Assembly (NCBI GenBank): GCA_029932855.1
Contig: JAOZPG010000006.1
Location: 62,001-126,000 of the forward strand
Direction: 5' to 3'
DNA: 64,000 nucleotides
Source of the DNA: Bacteroidales bacterium
GTDB taxonomy: Bacteria > Bacteroidota > Bacteroidia > Bacteroidales > VadinHA17
Both the position numbers and the translations under genes were made by a program. Of this stretch, positions 6,042 through 15,353 are shown piece after piece (position 1 is the stretch's first letter; each line of letters opens with the position of its first letter). The notes under the pieces were generated by a model. It saw only the letters and a program-made list of their open reading frames with translations, was not told the DNA's origin and did not search any database.

Positions 6042-6797
6042 ATGCGACACAGAAAAGGATTTAATCATTTAGGGAGGACAAGTTCACACAGAAAAGCCAT
6101 GCTTGCAAATATGGCATCATCCCTGATACTGAATAAAAAGATAAAGACTACAGAGGCAAAAGCGAAGGCGCTCAGGACATATGTAGAACCGTTGATTACT
6201 AAATCTAAAGAAGATTCTACACATTCCCGCAGGGTGGTATTCAGCTATCTGAAGGATAAATATGCGGTATCGGAATTATTTCGTGAAGTATCTCCAAAAG
6301 TTGCAGATCGTCCGGGTGGATATACCAGGATACTGAAGATAGGTAATCGTCTGGGGGATGCTGCCGAAATGTGTATTATTGAGTTGGTTGACTTTAATGA
6401 GAATCTGCTTGAGGCAAAAGAAACAAAGACCAGGTCTTCGAGGAGGAGAAGAGGCAAGAAGAAGTCGCCGGAAGCTGCAGCTCAGGCTGAAGAAACAGTA
6501 AGTACAACTGAAACGGCTAATGAGGTGAAAGAAGAGAAGCCGGCTGCAGAAGAGGCTGTGGTTAAGGAAGAAAAACCCGCAGGAGAAAAGGCTGAGGCCG
6601 AAAAAGAGCCGGAAGCAGAAACAAAGAAGGAAGATGTTAAGCCGGAAGCAGAAACAAAGAAGGAAGATGTTAAGGCAGAAGCAAAGGATAAAGAGCCTGA
6701 AGCAGAAGTGAAAGGAAAAGCTAAGGAAGCACCAAAAGCAGCGCCTGACAATAGCCAGGACAAGAAAGAAGATAAGGAAGAAGACAAAAAAGAATAA
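6042..6797 (+). CDS. rplQ: 50S ribosomal protein L17 with long charged C-terminal extension
   Basis: 251 residues. The first ~120 are a complete L17: [35 protein letters not shown], and [28 protein letters not shown]17 sits near the exit tunnel on the 50S subunit. The remaining ~125 residues are low-complexity Glu/Lys/Ala, starting with a basic [11 protein letters not shown] patch. They include a near-perfect repeated unit ([11 protein letters not shown] then [11 protein letters not shown]). Bacteroidetes L17 often has an acidic tail, but this one doubles the protein. Last gene of the operon; a terminator follows. Confidence 0.96.
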
Positions 6798-8362: not shown

Positions 8363-8583
8363 ATCAGAACTTTATCAGGACTCCCTGTTTCCTCTATTTT
8401 TTCCCGATCATTTTTTTATTGCTTTGTTGTTTAGCTTCTTTAAAAACAGAGCAGCTTGACTTAAGCATATATATTCGGCAATAGCCTGACTTAATGCATT
8501 GATAAGTTTAATGCAATAAAAATATTATTCAATATTTATACTTATTGAGTATCTTCGGGTATCAATAACAAAGGTGTTCAGGC

Positions 8584-10503
8584 ATGGCATATAAGAGTTT
8601 AAGGGAGTATATAAACAAATTGCGCGATAATGACGAGCTTGTTATTATTAAGGATTTTGTTGACCCTGTACTTGAGATTGCGGAGATAACAGACAGGATC
8701 TCTAAGGCACCTAATGGAGGCAAAGCCCTGCTTTTTGAGAATACAGCTACTGAATTCCCGGTACTGATCAATTCCATGGGTTCATACCGTAGGATGAATA
8801 TGGCATTGGGCCTTAATGATCTTGATGAACCGGGAGAAGAGATAAGGCAGTTGTTAAAAGATATTTCCTTTCCTGCTGCCGGTTTGAGGCAGAAGCTTTC
8901 CATTTTGCCAAAGCTTGGCCGCTTTTCTTCCTGGATGCCATCCCTTAGCAGGGCTAAGGGGAGTTGTCAGGAGGTGGTTCATAAGGATCCCGATCTTGGC
9001 ATATTACCGGTTTTACAATGCTGGCCGAAAGATGCAGGCAGGTTTTTTACTTTTCCCATGGTTCATACTAAAGACCTGCATACGGGAATAAGGAATGTTG
9101 GTATGTACAGGATGCAGGTCATTGACAGGCAGACGACAGGGATGCACTGGCACAGGCATAAAGTGGGGGCCCGTCATTACAGGGAATATAAGGAGGCAGG
9201 AATAAGAATGCCCGTTGCTGTTGCCCTGGGTGGAGATCCTGTGTTTACATATGCAGCCACAGCACCATTACCTGATAATATGGATGAATATATGCTGGCG
9301 GGTTTCCTCAGGAAGAAAAAGGTTGAACTGGTAAAATGTCTTAGCCAGGATATAGAAGTCCCTGCCGATGCAGATATTATAATTGAGGGTTATATAGATC
9401 CTTCGGAGGAGCTTTTCCTTGAAGGACCCTTTGGAGATCATACAGGTTTTTACTCACTGGCCGACTGGTATCCCAGGTTTCATGTAACATGTATTACCCA
9501 CAGAAAAGATGCTGTATATCCTGCCACAATTGTAGGAATACCTCCCCAGGAGGATGTATGGATAGCAAAAGCCACAGAGAGAATATTCCTTATACCCCTG
9601 CAACTGTCGGTAATACCCGAATTACTGGATATGGAGATCCCTCCCGAGGGAGTTGCCCATAATCTTACAATAGTAAAAATCAGGAAAGACTATCCCGGGC
9701 AGGCAAGAAAGGTGATGAATGCCTTATGGGGTGCCGGGCAGATGATGCTTAATAAAATGCTTATAGTTGTTGACGGGGATGTAGATATTCATGATTACCA
9801 TGCACTGGCAGTCCATATTAGCGCAAATTTTGATCCGGCCACAGATGTTTACTTCGACAGGGGTCCGCTGGATGTTCTTGATCATGCCTCTGTTGTTATG
9901 GGCTTTGGTGGTAAGATGGGAATAGATGCCACAGCTAAGCTGGAAGAGGAACTAATTACCGGTGTAGCAGGGCAAGCAGACAAGAGAGCAGACATACAAA
10001 GCGCTAAGATTCTTCCGCTAAAGATAAATGCAGGTGAGATTCCTCTTATCTCAGCTACGGGAGTCAGCCTTCTTAAAACGGGTATTTCCGTTCAGGTAGT
10101 GGCTATAAAAAAATGTAGTTCAGAGGAGCTGTGGGAAATTGCTTACAGCTTGCTTGATAAAACAGATGCCGGGGGACCGGCTGTATTGCTATTTGTTGAT
10201 GACAGGCTGGATATTGATGATATTTCTGTTATTACATGGCTCAGCACAAATAATATTGATCCGCAGAGAGACTGCCGGATACTTAAAAAGAGCCGTTCTA
10301 TGCTGTTTATTGATGCTAGCACCAAGTTTCCGGGGCTCGGGGAGCATACCCGTGACTGGCCGAATATTATTGTTTCGGATGATAGTACTATCAGGACTGT
10401 TGATGCTAAGTGGTCTGCTTTAGGATTGGGTGAGCTTATAGCTTCACCTTCACTTGAGTATAAAAAATATCTTAGAAAGGGAGGGGCTGAAGTTGAAGAA
10501 TGA
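8584..10503 (+). CDS. UbiD-family decarboxylase, probably MqnL of the futalosine menaquinone route
   Basis: 639 residues. UbiD enzymes decarboxylate aromatic or unsaturated acids using prenylated FMN made by a UbiX partner. The cofactor/catalytic region is clear: GMYRMQVIDRQTTGMHWHRHK around Arg176, and EGPFGDHTGFY with Glu280 and Asp285, together forming the R-E-D/E triad. The protein is longer than E. coli UbiD (about 500), with an extra C-terminal part, as in the long UbiD proteins of futalosine-pathway organisms. Since a futalosine hydrolase lies at 59.6 kb, a role as the late menaquinone decarboxylase (MqnL) is a reasonable inference. Its last 11 bases overlap the next gene. Confidence 0.85.
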   Translation: MAYKSLREYINKLRDNDELVIIKDFVDPVLEIAEITDRISKAPNGGKALLFENTATEFPVLINSMGSYRRMNMALGLNDLDEPGEEIRQLLKDISFPAAGLRQKLSILPKLGRFSSWMPSLSRAKGSCQEVVHKDPDLGILPVLQCWPKDAGRFFTFPMVHTKDLHTGIRNVGMYRMQVIDRQTTGMHWHRHKVGARHYREYKEAGIRMPVAVALGGDPVFTYAATAPLPDNMDEYMLAGFLRKKKVELVKCLSQDIEVPADADIIIEGYIDPSEELFLEGPFGDHTGFYSLADWYPRFHVTCITHRKDAVYPATIVGIPPQEDVWIAKATERIFLIPLQLSVIPELLDMEIPPEGVAHNLTIVKIRKDYPGQARKVMNALWGAGQMMLNKMLIVVDGDVDIHDYHALAVHISANFDPATDVYFDRGPLDVLDHASVVMGFGGKMGIDATAKLEEELITGVAGQADKRADIQSAKILPLKINAGEIPLISATGVSLLKTGISVQVVAIKKCSSEELWEIAYSLLDKTDAGGPAVLLFVDDRLDIDDISVITWLSTNNIDPQRDCRILKKSRSMLFIDASTKFPGLGEHTRDWPNIIVSDDSTIRTVDAKWSALGLGELIASPSLEYKKYLRKGGAEVEE

Positions 10504-11863
10504 TATTTTAAAATTATTCAGGCTGTGTGTCCTGGGCTTTTCCTTAAGCTTTGTTTTTCCGGGATCCTGTTATTCCGGAGAGACTGCAAGATTACAGACG
10601 ATAAGTTTCCTTACCTCCGACGGTATGGAAACGAGAGTGGTATCAAATGAGACTGAGTATATAAAGACTGCAAAAACAAACCTGATATCTTTTGAGTATG
10701 TATTGCCGCCAACAGAGCAGGTAAAGGTATATGAATATATGCTTGAGGGGGTTGATAAAGAATGGACATGGACCCTGGAGAGTGGAAATGTCATTTATTC
10801 AAATATACGAAAGGGGGATTATGTATTCAGACTCAGGGAGATAGCCCGGTCAGGAGATAGCCGTCCCGAACACATCCATCAGCAGTTAAGAGTTGTTCTC
10901 CCTTTGTGGAACAGTAACATAGCACTATTTTTTTACTTACTGTTCTTCTTTGGCGGCCTGGTCTTTTTTATTCATTACAGGACAAAAAGTCTTATCCTGG
11001 CCAACCAGATGTTGAGGGAAAAGGAACAGAAGTCAATTGAGGTGGCTGAGCAGAGAGAGGAGCTGGCGATCAAGAACAGGAATATTACTGACAGCATCAG
11101 GTATGCTCAGAAGATACAGGAGTCCCTTTTACCGGAAAACAGGTATTTCAAGACTTTATTACCTGAATCATTTGTGCTTTTCAGGCCCAAAGATATTGTT
11201 AGCGGTGATTTTTACTGGATATCGGAAGCATATGATAAAATATTCGTTGTATCGGCAGATTGTACCGGACATGGAGTCCCGGGAGCACTTATGTCTATGA
11301 TAGGTTTTGAGCTGCTTGCCAGGGTTATACAGGAGAAAGCAAAAGAACATCCATCAGAGATACTTGAGATAATAAGTAATGGTATTGAGTCAACATTCAG
11401 TCGTAATGTTCAGGACCCTTTGCTGAAAGACGGAATTGATATCGGGCTGGTAATGATTGACAAAAACAAAAGGGAGGCTGAGTTTTCCGGAGGATTCAAT
11501 ACCATGTACCTGATAAGGGATGACCGGCTTACTGAAATAAAAGGAGACAGGCTGACAGTAGGGACCAGGGAAAGTGGTCCCGATACAAACTTCAGGAACC
11601 ACTTTTTCAAGCTTGAGGAGAATGACAGGATATATCTTTTCTCAGATGGTTATCCCGATCAGTTTGGGGGCCCCAAGGGGAAGAAGTTCATGTACAGGAG
11701 ATTTAAGCATCTTTTGCTTACCATACATAAAAAGCCAATGGATGAGCAGCTAAGACTGCTTGATGAAACACTTGTATCCTGGATGGGGGGTATATCACAG
11801 ATAGATGATATACAGGTAATTGGTTTTCAGCCTTTAGCCTTGCTTAAAAAACTCAAAACTTAG
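10493..11863 (+). CDS. Membrane-anchored PP2C/SpoIIE-type serine phosphatase with a Y_Y_Y sensor domain
   Basis: 456 residues from TTG at 10493. This start is preferred over a TTG at 10454 because AAAGGGAGGGG lies just upstream and the protein then opens with a clear signal/anchor sequence. Domain order: signal segment (to ~30); a periplasmic Y_Y_Y immunoglobulin-like domain (~45-135; YMLEGVDKEWTW, IRKGDYVFRLRE); a transmembrane helix (~140-165); a coiled coil; and a SpoIIE-type phosphatase domain (~210-450) with metal Asp residues in SGDFYW, SADCTGHGVPGALMSM and the closing QIDDIQVIGF. No beta-propeller, which usually precedes Y_Y_Y, is present. Likely senses an envelope signal and dephosphorylates a cytoplasmic target. 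It overlaps the UbiD gene. Confidence 0.82.
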   Translation: MKNDILKLFRLCVLGFSLSFVFPGSCYSGETARLQTISFLTSDGMETRVVSNETEYIKTAKTNLISFEYVLPPTEQVKVYEYMLEGVDKEWTWTLESGNVIYSNIRKGDYVFRLREIARSGDSRPEHIHQQLRVVLPLWNSNIALFFYLLFFFGGLVFFIHYRTKSLILANQMLREKEQKSIEVAEQREELAIKNRNITDSIRYAQKIQESLLPENRYFKTLLPESFVLFRPKDIVSGDFYWISEAYDKIFVVSADCTGHGVPGALMSMIGFELLARVIQEKAKEHPSEILEIISNGIESTFSRNVQDPLLKDGIDIGLVMIDKNKREAEFSGGFNTMYLIRDDRLTEIKGDRLTVGTRESGPDTNFRNHFFKLEENDRIYLFSDGYPDQFGGPKGKKFMYRRFKHLLLTIHKKPMDEQLRLLDETLVSWMGGISQIDDIQVIGFQPLALLKKLKT

Positions 11864-11867
11864 AAAC

Positions 11868-13604
11868 TTATAGTAGTTTTTTGATCTTTACCATAAGATC
11901 CTCTATCTTAAATGGCTTACTAATGTAGTCATCCATTCCTGCAGAGATACATTTCTCCTTGTCACCTATCAGCGCATTGGCAGTAACTGCTATTATGGGA
12001 ACATGGGTATTACTGCTTTTCTCTATCTCCCTGATCTTTATTGTGGCCGATAAGCCATCCATTACCTCCATCTGTATGTCCATAAGTATAATGTCATACT
12101 TTGAATTCCCAAATTTATCAAGAGCTTCCTTTCCGTTTCCTGCTATATCAATATTTTTAAAGTAATCCTTAAGGCCCAGGCATAGGATTTTCTGGTTCAG
12201 TTCATTGTCTTCAACCAGAAGCAGACTTGATTCTTCAGGTTTCTTGTCGTTTTTCAGCTCGTCCTCTGCCGGTTCCCGGAATATTTTGTGAGGATAATGA
12301 TCGCTTTCAGCCAACTGCAGGGGGATTGAAAAAATAAACCATGTTGAGGATTTATTCATATCGGCTTTCAGTTCTCCTCCAATTGATTCTACCAGTTGTT
12401 TGCTCTGGGAGAGACTTATATAATGCAATTCTTCATCCAGTGTTTTTGCATTAAAGATATTATTGTCACCGGCCAGAGGCTTTTGCAGCTTATCATTTTT
12501 GTCAAAGATCAGCAGGCCGGCACTGATCTTGAAGAAGTATTTATAATTTCCATTTCCCAGTTCCAGTGAGGATATCTCCAGATCGATATTTATATCTTCT
12601 TCATTTTTTCTACTCCTTATGAATATCTCATATATAGTTAATAATATTTGCTTAAAGATAACAGGATCCCCAACTACCAGGTCTTTCCATACCTCTTTGT
12701 CATTTAAACTAAGGCTCAGGCCTTTTATGTTTTTATTACTGTAAAATTCAATTGTGCTGTTTATGGCGCTGCGGAGATTAAATACTGTTTTCTCAGGTTT
12801 ATGTGAACTTATACCCGAATCGGATATCTCAGATAATGTTTGTACAATATTTACCAGGTTATTGGTGGATGCTGTAAGTGTTTCAACAATATTCTTTTGT
12901 TCTGTATTAAGCACTTTCTCCGACAGTAGGGCATTCAATACCACAAGGTCGTTCAGCGGGGTGCGGATCTTGTGTGATAAGCTTGAGGTAAATTCTTTTT
13001 TAGACTGCAGGGAGTTTTCTGCCTTTATCTTTTCATTAAAAAGGATTTCGGCTATATGGTCTTTCTTTATTTCAATTGCGGCATAGAAAAAATAAACGGC
13101 AAGAAATATAATAAACAGTTCATAAAAGGAGGGAGTATCCACACTCATGTCAGGCATTAGGAATATGTATGGATTAAGCAGGATTGCAAGAACCAGGAAA
13201 CCGGCCGCACTTAAAATACTGCCCTTCCTTAAACCCAGGCTGTGTATTAAGAACACCGGCAGCAATCCCAGTATGCTGATATAGTTGGAATAAAAGCCAA
13301 AGTTTATGATCAGCTCCGTAAAAATAAGTATGCTTACCAGGCTTACTACGACCAGGAAATAATTCTCTATCTTATTACGATATTTATAATGAATAATTAT
13401 GTTTGCAATAAATGCAATGAAAATAAAAAGGAATATTGATGCCGTCAGGTAATCATTATTTGTAAGGTTTTCAATTCCACGTATCAGGGAAAGGGTCAGG
13501 CTTATCAAGAGGCTTAATTGTACAAGAGTGAAACGGGAATAAGTGTCGCCGGGCTTTAAAAAGCCAAATGACAATATTTTGTTTAAGTTTTGAACCAGCG
13601 ACAT
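11868..13604 (-). CDS. Membrane hybrid histidine kinase with degenerate ATP-binding domain and intact receiver
   Basis: 578 residues. About six hydrophobic segments (residues 25-178) form a membrane sensor. The dimerisation/phosphoacceptor helix keeps the H box (SLSHKIRTPLND, His211). The following domain aligns with a HATPase_c domain (GDPVIFKQILL... to ...STWFIFSIPL), but the N box (normally N.l.NAik) reads IYEIFIRSR, the DTGIG box reads ISAGLLIFDK and the GTGLGL box reads EELHYISL, so ATP binding is doubtful. The C-terminal receiver is complete: LLLVEDNELN, phosphoacceptor Asp509 in ILMDIQMEVMDG, AVTANAL and YISKPF. It converges with the PP2C gene, with only four bases between stops. Possibly a phosphotransfer or phosphatase protein rather than an autokinase. 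Confidence 0.85.
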   Translation of the reverse strand: MSLVQNLNKILSFGFLKPGDTYSRFTLVQLSLLISLTLSLIRGIENLTNNDYLTASIFLFIFIAFIANIIIHYKYRNKIENYFLVVVSLVSILIFTELIINFGFYSNYISILGLLPVFLIHSLGLRKGSILSAAGFLVLAILLNPYIFLMPDMSVDTPSFYELFIIFLAVYFFYAAIEIKKDHIAEILFNEKIKAENSLQSKKEFTSSLSHKIRTPLNDLVVLNALLSEKVLNTEQKNIVETLTASTNNLVNIVQTLSEISDSGISSHKPEKTVFNLRSAINSTIEFYSNKNIKGLSLSLNDKEVWKDLVVGDPVIFKQILLTIYEIFIRSRKNEEDINIDLEISSLELGNGNYKYFFKISAGLLIFDKNDKLQKPLAGDNNIFNAKTLDEELHYISLSQSKQLVESIGGELKADMNKSSTWFIFSIPLQLAESDHYPHKIFREPAEDELKNDKKPEESSLLLVEDNELNQKILCLGLKDYFKNIDIAGNGKEALDKFGNSKYDIILMDIQMEVMDGLSATIKIREIEKSSNTHVPIIAVTANALIGDKEKCISAGMDDYISKPFKIEDLMVKIKKLL

Positions 13605-13766: not shown

Positions 13767-14477
13767 ATGAAGCATATTATACTGGTTCTGCTATTATTGA
13801 ATAGCATTAGCTTGCAGTTTCTGGAAGCTCAGTCGCCTGAAGCTGAAAAGGTGAAATATACTCATGAGTTCAGGTTTAATGACGGCATATTCATTGATTT
13901 TGAGCAGGTTAAGAATAATGATCCTATAAGGAAGTATAAAATACTTACCAATGCAGGTTATCACGACCATAATTTCTTTGAAACTGTTCTGGAGAGTGAT
14001 GTAATATATTATTTCGATGAAAATGCGCAAAGGCAGGAGCTTAGCATTGAGAAGATATGGGGGTATTCCCATAATGGTTTATTGTATATAAATTTGAATA
14101 ATGATTTTATCAGGGTAACAATTGTTGGCGGCATATGTCATTTTGTTGGAACGGTTGTCACAACGGAATCGAGGTATTCCGATCCCTATTATAATCCCTA
14201 TTATAATAGTTATGGCAGTTACTATGGTTATTATAACAGCTATTATTCCCCTATGCGGTCAACAAGCTATAAACGAACGGAGATGAAGCAATTTATTCTT
14301 GATTTCGAGACAGGTAAGGTGATGGATTATAATGTTAAGAACCTTGAAATTGCCCTTATGAGAGATCCGGAACTATATGACGAATATATTGTACTGAGCT
14401 CAAAAAAGAAGAAGCAGTTAAAATTTCTTTATATTAGGAAGTTCAATGAAAGAAACCCTGTTTTTTTTAATAAATAA
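13767..14477 (+). CDS. Secreted protein of unknown function with a Tyr-rich loop
   Basis: 236 residues with an N-terminal signal peptide (hydrophobic to about residue 20, then EAQS). I do not recognise a family. The body looks beta-rich, with alternating hydrophobic residues (DGIFIDFEQVKNNDP, NDFIRVTIVGGICHF). Between residues ~135 and 160 lies a stretch dominated by Tyr, Ser, Asn and Pro. The C-terminus is lysine-rich (LSSKKKKQLKFLYIRKFNERNP). It is followed 15 bases later by another secreted unknown and then by a membrane protein; the three probably share a transcript from the box at 13714. Confidence 0.75.
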   Translation: MKHIILVLLLLNSISLQFLEAQSPEAEKVKYTHEFRFNDGIFIDFEQVKNNDPIRKYKILTNAGYHDHNFFETVLESDVIYYFDENAQRQELSIEKIWGYSHNGLLYINLNNDFIRVTIVGGICHFVGTVVTTESRYSDPYYNPYYNSYGSYYGYYNSYYSPMRSTSYKRTEMKQFILDFETGKVMDYNVKNLEIALMRDPELYDEYIVLSSKKKKQLKFLYIRKFNERNPVFFNK

Positions 14478-14492
14478 TAAAACCCTGTAATC

Positions 14493-15353
14493 ATGCCACA
14501 AAAGCAAATCAGTGTATATATTTTCTTTCTGTCTTTTTTTCTCCTTTCACAATTTAGTTATTCCCAATCGGTATTGCCCGATAAACATCAGATAGAGTCT
14601 TTCTTTAATTCAAAAACCATGGTTGTTCTTGAATCCGGCATGTTCTCAAACTTTAATATGGAGATTAAAGATGCTATGGAGAAATACTGGAAGATCACGC
14701 CCTATGATTTTATAGATGCAGATGAGTTCAGGGAAAAAATGCAGGACAGTACTTATTCATTTATTATGCTCACACAGTCTTCTTTTGAGAAGGATAAGAA
14801 ACAGATACATTACGATTTCATAAATTTTTTGCTGGGAGCAAAATACAAATCGCTTTCAGAACTACCGGAAGCAGCATCTGTACCGCTTGCATATGCGGGG
14901 GGAGACCAGGAATACTATGGTTTTAAGCTTGGTGTCATTATTAGGTTTGTTCAGAACAGGGCGATAGAAATGAAAGAAAAGGGAATAGAAAACTCCATGA
15001 AACATCTTAATTATTACAATAAGGCTTCAGGAGAGATAAAAACTAAAAAACTTGTAATTTGTGAGGGGGATCTTCAGCCGGGCCTGAGGGAGTCTGCTGC
15101 CATAAAGAAGTATTACGATCATGAGGTGGAGATTGTTAGTGCAGATGATATGGCTAAGCTTGTATCGGCAGGCACTGAAGATGTTTACTTTCTTCACGTT
15201 GTTGGTCCCGAAGAATCTCAGCGTTCGGGCATATCATTTAAAATGATCTTTAAGCTTAGTGATGCAAGCCTTATTTATTATAACAAACATAACATCTCTG
15301 AAAAAAAACCGGCAGGCTTCAGTCCACAGGATTTTAAACGAATTAACAAATAA
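14493..15353 (+). CDS. Secreted protein of unknown function
   Basis: 286 residues. A signal peptide (hydrophobic run to about residue 25, ending FSYSQS) predicts export. The rest is a soluble alpha/beta-looking domain without a motif I can name. Recognisable stretches are DFIDADEFREKMQDSTYSFI, VPLAYAGGDQEYYGFKL and LVICEGDLQPGLRESAAIKKYY. It lies 15 bases after the Tyr-rich secreted protein and only four bases before the DUF4870 membrane protein, so the three are likely co-expressed. Probably a lineage-specific envelope protein. Confidence 0.78.
   Translation: MPQKQISVYIFFLSFFLLSQFSYSQSVLPDKHQIESFFNSKTMVVLESGMFSNFNMEIKDAMEKYWKITPYDFIDADEFREKMQDSTYSFIMLTQSSFEKDKKQIHYDFINFLLGAKYKSLSELPEAASVPLAYAGGDQEYYGFKLGVIIRFVQNRAIEMKEKGIENSMKHLNYYNKASGEIKTKKLVICEGDLQPGLRESAAIKKYYDHEVEIVSADDMAKLVSAGTEDVYFLHVVGPEESQRSGISFKMIFKLSDASLIYYNKHNISEKKPAGFSPQDFKRINK

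Follow-up and report, generated by a model that had tools for sequence, protein, structure and literature searches.

The pseudo-histidine kinases that we found in print, namely RetS, DivL, ChpT and PhyT, are single cases or small groups, whereas the proteins described here form a maintained family with 63 aligned members. The closest described case, RetS, is a hybrid kinase without G boxes that accepts phosphate from GacS on its own receiver, removes phosphate from the receiver of GacS and keeps GacS from autophosphorylating (PMC5992135). A pseudokinase form of ChrS arose in laboratory evolution and is discussed together with ChrS-HrrS heterodimers (PMC9491836). The residues on which the activities of HisKA proteins depend are described in parts of PMC3510030. 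The acidic residue following the phospho-acceptor His (H+1) is required for autokinase activity in CrdS, HK853, HK1190 and HK4262, and the Asn or Thr at H+4 is required for phosphatase activity. Replacement of the H+1 Glu of CrdS by Ala, Asp, Gly or Gln abolishes kinase activity and leaves phosphatase activity, and the His mutant of CrdS retains most of its phosphatase activity, with a substrate half-life of 2.6 min against 0.7 for the wild type and 53.5 with no protein. Our literature search, in which subscription papers are thinly covered so that absence is unproven, returned nothing on the family reported here.

The gene under study lies in a 64,000-nucleotide stretch of a Bacteroidales genome (contig JAOZPG010000006.1, positions 62,001 to 126,000), which as a whole is termed the window. 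An earlier note on this DNA had read it as a hybrid histidine kinase with intact H box and receiver and no ATP-binding boxes. Pfam recognizes a HisKA domain (residues 202-261, E 1e-9) and a Response_reg domain (residues 462-574, E 3e-24) in the 578-aa protein; the profile search proposed in that note finds nothing, in that no HATPase_c model of Pfam matches the ORF at E<=1. At the same threshold Pfam finds neither a 7TMR-DISM domain nor a second receiver, giving a receiver count of one, and no match bears the name of a ChpT- or Spo0B-type model, provided that the library contains such models. The parts of the gene, in positions of the window, are as follows:

11868..13604, minus strand: pseudokinase-type hybrid histidine kinase, 578 aa (ORF with ATG start, Pfam, family alignment)
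13035..13604, minus strand: membrane part, residues 1-190, with six hydrophobic helices (hydropathy and AlphaFold helices)
12819..13034, minus strand: DHp (HisKA) domain, residues 191-262 (Pfam PF00512)
12972..12974, minus strand: His211, the phospho-acceptor position (family alignment; His in 54/63 members)
12969..12971, minus strand: Lys212 at H+1, where autokinases have Glu or Asp (alignment; residue role from parts of PMC3510030)
12960..12962, minus strand: Thr215 at H+4, the HisKA phosphatase residue (Thr in 57/63; residue role from parts of PMC3510030)
12297..12818, minus strand: degenerate CA (ATPase) domain, residues 263-436, with a predicted fold and no boxes (Pfam, AlphaFold, structural comparison)
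12615..12650, minus strand: place of the N box, residues 319-330, QILLTIYEIFIR (alignment)
12507..12521, minus strand: place of the G1 box, residues 362-366, AGLLI against DTGIG (alignment)
12411..12428, minus strand: place of the G2 box, residues 393-398, LHYISL against GTGLGL (alignment)
11871..12230, minus strand: receiver domain, residues 459-578, with E465, D466, D509, T541 and K563 (Pfam PF00072 and alignment)
12078..12080, minus strand: Asp509, the receiver phospho-acceptor (Pfam and alignment)

We aligned the protein with its relatives and with normal hybrid kinases, including one from the query's own genome (L060). At the N, G1 and G2 columns the query reads TIYEI, AGLLI and LHYISL, where the normal kinases have the N-box Asn pair, DTGIG and GTGLGL. 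Neither G1 (D-x-G-x-G in the CA region) nor G2 (G-x-G-x-G at its place) occurs in any of the 63 aligned relatives (0/63 each), whereas both are present in 4/4 aligned normal kinases and at 29/29 loci, other than the query's own, taken from a search of the phylum using the same profile. The absence of the ATP boxes from this ORF, as the earlier note had it, is thus real and not due to chance. The note had allowed for orthologues with normal boxes at these positions: there are none among the 63, and its claim stands. A mis-alignment of the boxes was also considered and is rejected, since the same-genome and phylum-wide controls carry them in the same columns. The loss is older and broader than it first appeared, extending over the whole family, although the RetS type as such was already known. 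Asn is retained at N-box position 323 in 44/63 members and at the second N-box position, 327, in 24/63, so that the query's N box is more worn than that of part of the family. Between the G1 strand and the G2 helix, where the query has residues 363-395, the length of the aligned stretch varies across family members between 11 and 45 residues, with 11-16 in 11/63 of them, against 31-33 in 17 normal kinases. In one member (G008; L065:6030-6710), repeats of the Gly-Val-Gly-Asp-Ser-Lys type are inserted exactly where the N box would lie.

The DHp motif of the query reads HKIRT, within SLSHKIRTP, which holds His211; this residue and the receiver Asp509 are both present as had been noted. The description of the H box as intact is correct for His211 and fails at H+1, where Lys212 replaces the Glu or Asp. 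Across the 63 members the His site is occupied by His in 54, Tyr in six, Arg in two and Asn in one. At H+1 there is Gln in 51, an acidic residue in only four, Lys in four, Arg in three and Asn in one; all 4/4 aligned normal kinases are acidic here. The commonest state in the family thereby matches the Glu-to-Gln change in CrdS, and the query's Lys is not among the CrdS changes given in the relevant passages of PMC3510030. Position H+4 is Thr in 57/63, with the exceptions being Glu in four short members (L057, L063, L064 and L067), Gln in L053 and Leu in L059; hence, HisKA-type phosphatase activity cannot be general in the family. The receiver residues E465, D466, D509, T541 and K563 are each found in 63/63. 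Ahead of the DHp domain every one of the 63 members shows two or more hydrophobic windows, and the six short forms of 446-507 residues have two adjacent ones; these six short-membrane pseudokinases form one clade. With the glycine boxes gone in 63/63 and an acidic H+1 in only 4/63, the protein should indeed not easily autophosphorylate, as had been proposed, and the alignment shows that it lacks the residues that would be needed for ATP binding and for initiating His phosphorylation.

Full-length relatives were recovered from a search of 60 related genomes, with identities to the query, over a 24-sequence alignment, of 49-50% within the genus and 26-38% outside it. A scan of genome contigs with the single protein gave nine loci, two of them close matches and the other seven weaker or partial. 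The boxes are missing from 28 of the first 30 loci, the remaining two (L026 and L029) being normal kinases. A CA-only profile hit 197/295 genomes at E<=1e-8, with the family mixed with apparent normal kinases lower down; we therefore used a DHp+CA profile instead. Its scores distinguish family members from normal kinases reasonably well: the 43 built-in members score 191-291 bits, later-added members from 220 down to 158 and normal kinases at most 160, and below about 180 bits membership was decided by the boxes themselves. The 63 aligned members are those fetched as DNA with flanks and, by their handles, span 22 families of one order. Outside this set lie, from the 28 above, a TAG-broken member (G018) and three short forms that lack the boxes (L022, L023 and L025); probable short forms in G010, G011, G020, G027, G031, G032 and G035; a member in G070, for which an antisense frame had been picked; and many matches from a search of 393 genomes of the order, in which 67 pass E<=1e-46 and 58 of these score at least 183 bits. 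In 395 genomes of the phylum, the window's own is the only one among the matches listed to exceed 160.1 bits; 29 of the highest-ranking other loci were fetched, and every one has normal boxes. The main body of the family thus looks restricted to one order in the sampled genomes, with low-scoring members elsewhere being possible.

An AlphaFold model of the whole protein (24 sequences; mean pLDDT 79, pTM 0.40) has helices at the expected membrane spans, a long DHp helix pair, a CA fold and a receiver. Comparison of this whole model with the PDB matched only receiver domains, and the DHp-CA part was consequently folded and searched separately (43 sequences; pLDDT 79, pTM 0.77). Based on these models, the CA fold is predicted to be intact despite the lost boxes. 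The best solved match of the DHp-CA model is the kinase region of RetS (6dk7; Z 18.9, 172 aligned residues, rmsd 2.9), with phytochrome A, ETR1 and GacS following 1.0-1.6 Z units below; in a profile comparison against the sequences of solved chains, GacS is best (136.8 bits) and RetS second (about 118 bits). Neither ChpT nor Spo0B is among the best 50 structural rows for this part, which excludes nothing.

We built a tree from the columns of the DHp and receiver domains, without positions 211, 212 and 215 or any part of the CA domain. One branch, with support of 100/99, divides it into the 63 members and 17 normal kinases, which is consistent with a single loss of kinase function that preceded the divergence of the families. 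Within the family the His was changed at least four times. The dN/dS of the CA domain is 0.02-0.39 in the 8/19 close pairs with computable dS, pairs that share some members and in three of which dS is high (1.8-2.6); this points to a domain maintained by purifying selection. The box-less state is, on the evidence of the tree and these substitution rates, both old and maintained. A recent loss was entertained as well and is rejected by the monophyly of the members and their spread over families. Mean pairwise identity among the 57 members longer than 540 residues is 17% for the membrane part, 42% for DHp, 24% for CA and 67% for the receiver. The matched control consisted of a normal hybrid kinase encoded in the query's genome, together with its orthologues from the same five genomes. 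The means over ten pairs, normal against pseudokinase, are 58 against 33% for CA, 72 against 60 for DHp, 43 against 29 for the membrane part and 54 against 76 for the receiver. Constraint has shifted away from the kinase core and onto the receiver, the opposite of the situation in a normal hybrid kinase.

The pseudokinase gene faces a phosphatase gene, and two further neighbours are conserved on its other side:

10454..11863, plus strand: SiaA-type SpoIIE/PP2C phosphatase of 469 residues with a Y_Y_Y domain and one hydrophobic helix, convergent (Pfam PF07228 and PF07495; NCBIfam SiaA below cut-off)
13767..14477, plus strand: conserved divergent neighbour c2, within two genes of 38/63 members
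14493..15353, plus strand: conserved neighbour c3, within three genes of 44/63 members

The two stops are separated by four bases, as previously remarked, the PP2C stop extending to 11863 and the kinase stop codon occupying positions from 11868 on. The RNA at the junction of the two genes has an ordinary fold (z -1.05); a scan for promoters and terminators gave five promoter-like sites against 8.2 in shuffles and two terminator-like ones against 1.3, and no match to phage DNA was found. The PP2C of the window has the GDF, DCTGHG, SDG and DD motifs, and scores 62.6 bits with PF07228 (cut-off 25). The NCBIfam SiaA model (NF038263) matches it at 191.9 bits over the phosphatase region only, under the 700-bit curated cut-off; a SiaA-like working of the protein would be compatible with this sub-cut-off match. 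It lacks the large propeller part of many of its orthologues, which have about 1,100 residues; the four long ones scanned (1,077-1,110 residues) each contain a Reg_prop propeller and three of the four a Y_Y_Y domain. In the five of the six short-membrane pseudokinases that have an adjacent PP2C, the PP2C frames are just 326-349 residues long. Neither c2 nor c3 matches a family over its cut-off in Pfam or NCBIfam; c3 is often retained where the PP2C is gone.

A PP2C is the next downstream convergent gene at 38/63 loci, with gaps of -14 to 419 bases, and the two may be functionally linked; 25/63 loci have no adjacent convergent PP2C. Where it is missing, the next gene differs. In L213 and L214 it codes for a chemoreceptor signalling protein; in L205 and L206 (L205:7936-10881 and L206:3226-6174) it is convergent, and its product joins a receiver to the ATP-binding domain of pyruvate phosphate dikinase (PPDK_N); further loci have others still. 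The pseudokinases of L205 and L206 both have Arg in place of the His. The wider gene order around the pseudokinase is likewise kept in many genomes, so that its adjacency to the PP2C alone is weak evidence and may reflect inherited order. These wider neighbours are presumably rpoA, rplQ, eno, gltA and ubiD on one side, and hisS and hutH on the other. The ORF at 6042-6797, which we take for ribosomal protein bL17, has an acidic, lysine-rich tail of more than 100 residues.

The query genome (2.6 Mb) contains about ten SpoIIE phosphatases, eight of which, including the window's own, were tested and score similarly with the SiaA model (148-213 bits). It also has SiaC matches at seven places, one of them beside a SiaB-family kinase (L245:10717-11670), and, over family cut-offs, three STAS proteins, one RsbW-type ATPase and one Hpt protein; thus, the genome seems to hold several parallel Sia-type switches. 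At L245:5720-6079 and in L121, the gene for a stand-alone Hpt precedes, in the same orientation, one for a STAS-domain protein, a pair that possibly forms a contact between phosphorelay and partner switch. Across genomes, SiaC is present in 62/63 with the pseudokinase against 101/330 others and, by family, in 23/24 against 31/95, the 119 families being the highest code seen. These 63 genomes differ from the 63 aligned members: they comprise 58 with matches of at least 183 bits, in which not all boxes were inspected, and five with aligned members at 158-170 bits; four genomes passing E<=1e-46 with uninspected boxes (G075, G120, G135 and G793) are outside the test, two of which (G120 and G793) have SiaC. 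An Hpt control is enriched in the same manner (51/52 against 172/282), in a sample of pseudokinase genomes with handles up to G753 whose one miss, G261, is of unconfirmed membership. Hence, the SiaC association is not specific and partly reflects signalling-rich genomes, and the link between pseudokinase and Sia proteins is suggestive only.

Since the kinase parts are lost while the receiver and the H+4 Thr are kept, and CrdS and RetS provide precedents, the best reading is an ATP-independent phosphate sink and phosphatase on the plan of RetS. This membrane-anchored pseudokinase would work without ATP: other kinases that are active would donate the phosphoryl group of their His~P to Asp509 of its receiver, and/or the DHp helix with Thr215 would speed the hydrolysis of phosphorylated receivers, either its own or those of a partner, with the ATP-free CA fold retained as a dimerization and docking part. 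A weaker step of the proposal is that its phosphorylation state may be tied to the adjoining SiaA-type PP2C, where two-component signals would meet the SiaA/SiaB/SiaC Ser/Thr switch. We regard this RetS-like scheme, with its possible feed into SiaA/B/C, as evenly poised between right and wrong. The stronger proposal, that the family as such couples two-component phosphorelays to these partner switches by sensing phosphate on its own receiver and using the ATP-free CA fold to switch the adjacent membrane PP2C between its active and inactive states, is doubtful. If true, it would be a direct pseudokinase-to-phosphatase link, undescribed in the literature found. Control of PP2C partner switches by hybrid kinases has likely precedents in RsbK-RsbY and HptB-HsbR, RsbY and HsbR being PP2C phosphatases.

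Among the three roles suggested in the earlier note, those of a phosphatase and of a kinase partner fit best, given the H+4 Thr and the RetS precedent, while phosphotransfer fares less well. In the manner of ChpT, Spo0B or PhyT, a degenerate kinase would serve as a dimeric phosphotransferase with His211 relaying phosphate from receiver to receiver. The His retained in 54/63 and the use of degenerate kinases for this purpose, PhyT being a membrane protein with a degenerated ATPase domain (in the relevant part of PMC5898713), are consistent with such a relay; it is at odds with the Tyr, Arg or Asn found at the His position in 9/63 members, arising by at least four changes on the tree, all in proteins whose receiver site is complete. 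Neither ChpT nor Spo0B, moreover, is known to carry a receiver of its own. A PhyT-like relay is possible for the members with the His and not for the nine without, and as an account of the family it is distinctly unlikely. The module might instead bind a phosphorylated receiver and transmit its state through contact with a further protein, such as the PP2C or an active kinase. The receiver as the most conserved part (67% against 42% for DHp and 24% for CA in the 57 members), the members without His or Thr, and the reuse of the DivL kinase module as an input sensor of response regulator phosphorylation (PMC4211667) all suit such a contact; nevertheless, an H+4 Thr in 57/63 and His in 54/63 are hard to explain without remaining chemistry, and we judge it unlikely.

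The two other rivals are much weaker. The predicted CA fold and the partial N box of many relatives (N323 in 44/63, N327 in 24/63) could be taken to mean that the protein still uses ATP through an unusual nucleotide pocket, which is very improbable considering that both glycine boxes are missing in 63/63, the H+1 acid is lost in 59/63, and the segment from G1 strand to G2 helix is down to 11-16 residues in 11/63, with 31-33 in the 17 controls. Finally, the lost boxes and an in-frame TAG in the relative G018 might suggest a remnant or decaying gene. The absence of internal stops from the 63 aligned members in 22 families, the CA dN/dS of 0.02-0.39 where computable and a receiver site complete in 63/63 make this scarcely credible. 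For the family, a pseudogene reading is contradicted by purifying selection and spread. The G018 orthologue itself (L048, G018:C1, about 8473-8540) has a single in-frame TAG shortly before the H box with both parts still conserved, which is either a recent break or an assembly error.

The RetS-like pseudokinase family offers a natural experiment on the function left to a histidine kinase when ATP can no longer be used: its residues sort into kept ones (the receiver site and the phosphatase Thr) and lost ones (the kinase parts), and its His-less members let phosphatase, sink and relay functions be told apart. Should the PP2C link be real, it would in addition show how two-component signals are wired to Sia-type switches.

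As for the known systems, RetS has a 7TMR-DISM sensor, DivL has Tyr at the His site, and ChpT and Spo0B need their His and are not known to have a receiver or a membrane part. RetS of Pseudomonas aeruginosa, from a different phylum, shares with the query the membrane-bound hybrid architecture, a HisKA domain with His and H+4 Thr, a HATPase fold without G boxes and a receiver. It differs in keeping HExxT and in having a REC2, and hence more than one receiver (sections of PMC5992135), as against the single receiver and the H+1 Lys (mostly Gln in the relatives) of the query, whose neighbour is a SiaA-type PP2C. PhyT of the Sphingomonas PhyT/PhyP locus, which functions in stress signalling, has in common a membrane anchor and a degenerated ATPase domain, but is a phosphotransferase with HRxxN (passages of PMC5898713), in contrast to the H-K/Q-x-x-T and fused receiver of the query family. 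ChpT and Spo0B are likewise degenerated histidine kinases (same passages), from which the query is set apart by its fused receiver and membrane helices. DivL of Caulobacter is also a pseudokinase acting through a receiver and is found as a structural row (4q20; Z 15.4, rmsd 11.4, 200 aligned); it differs by its PAS sensors (PMC4211667), and the query family mostly keeps the His. With SiaABCD, the locus shares a facing PP2C that matches the SiaA phosphatase region, in a genome with SiaC at seven places and at least one SiaB-family kinase; the abstract of PMC7647112, on SiaABCD, names no pseudokinase partner.
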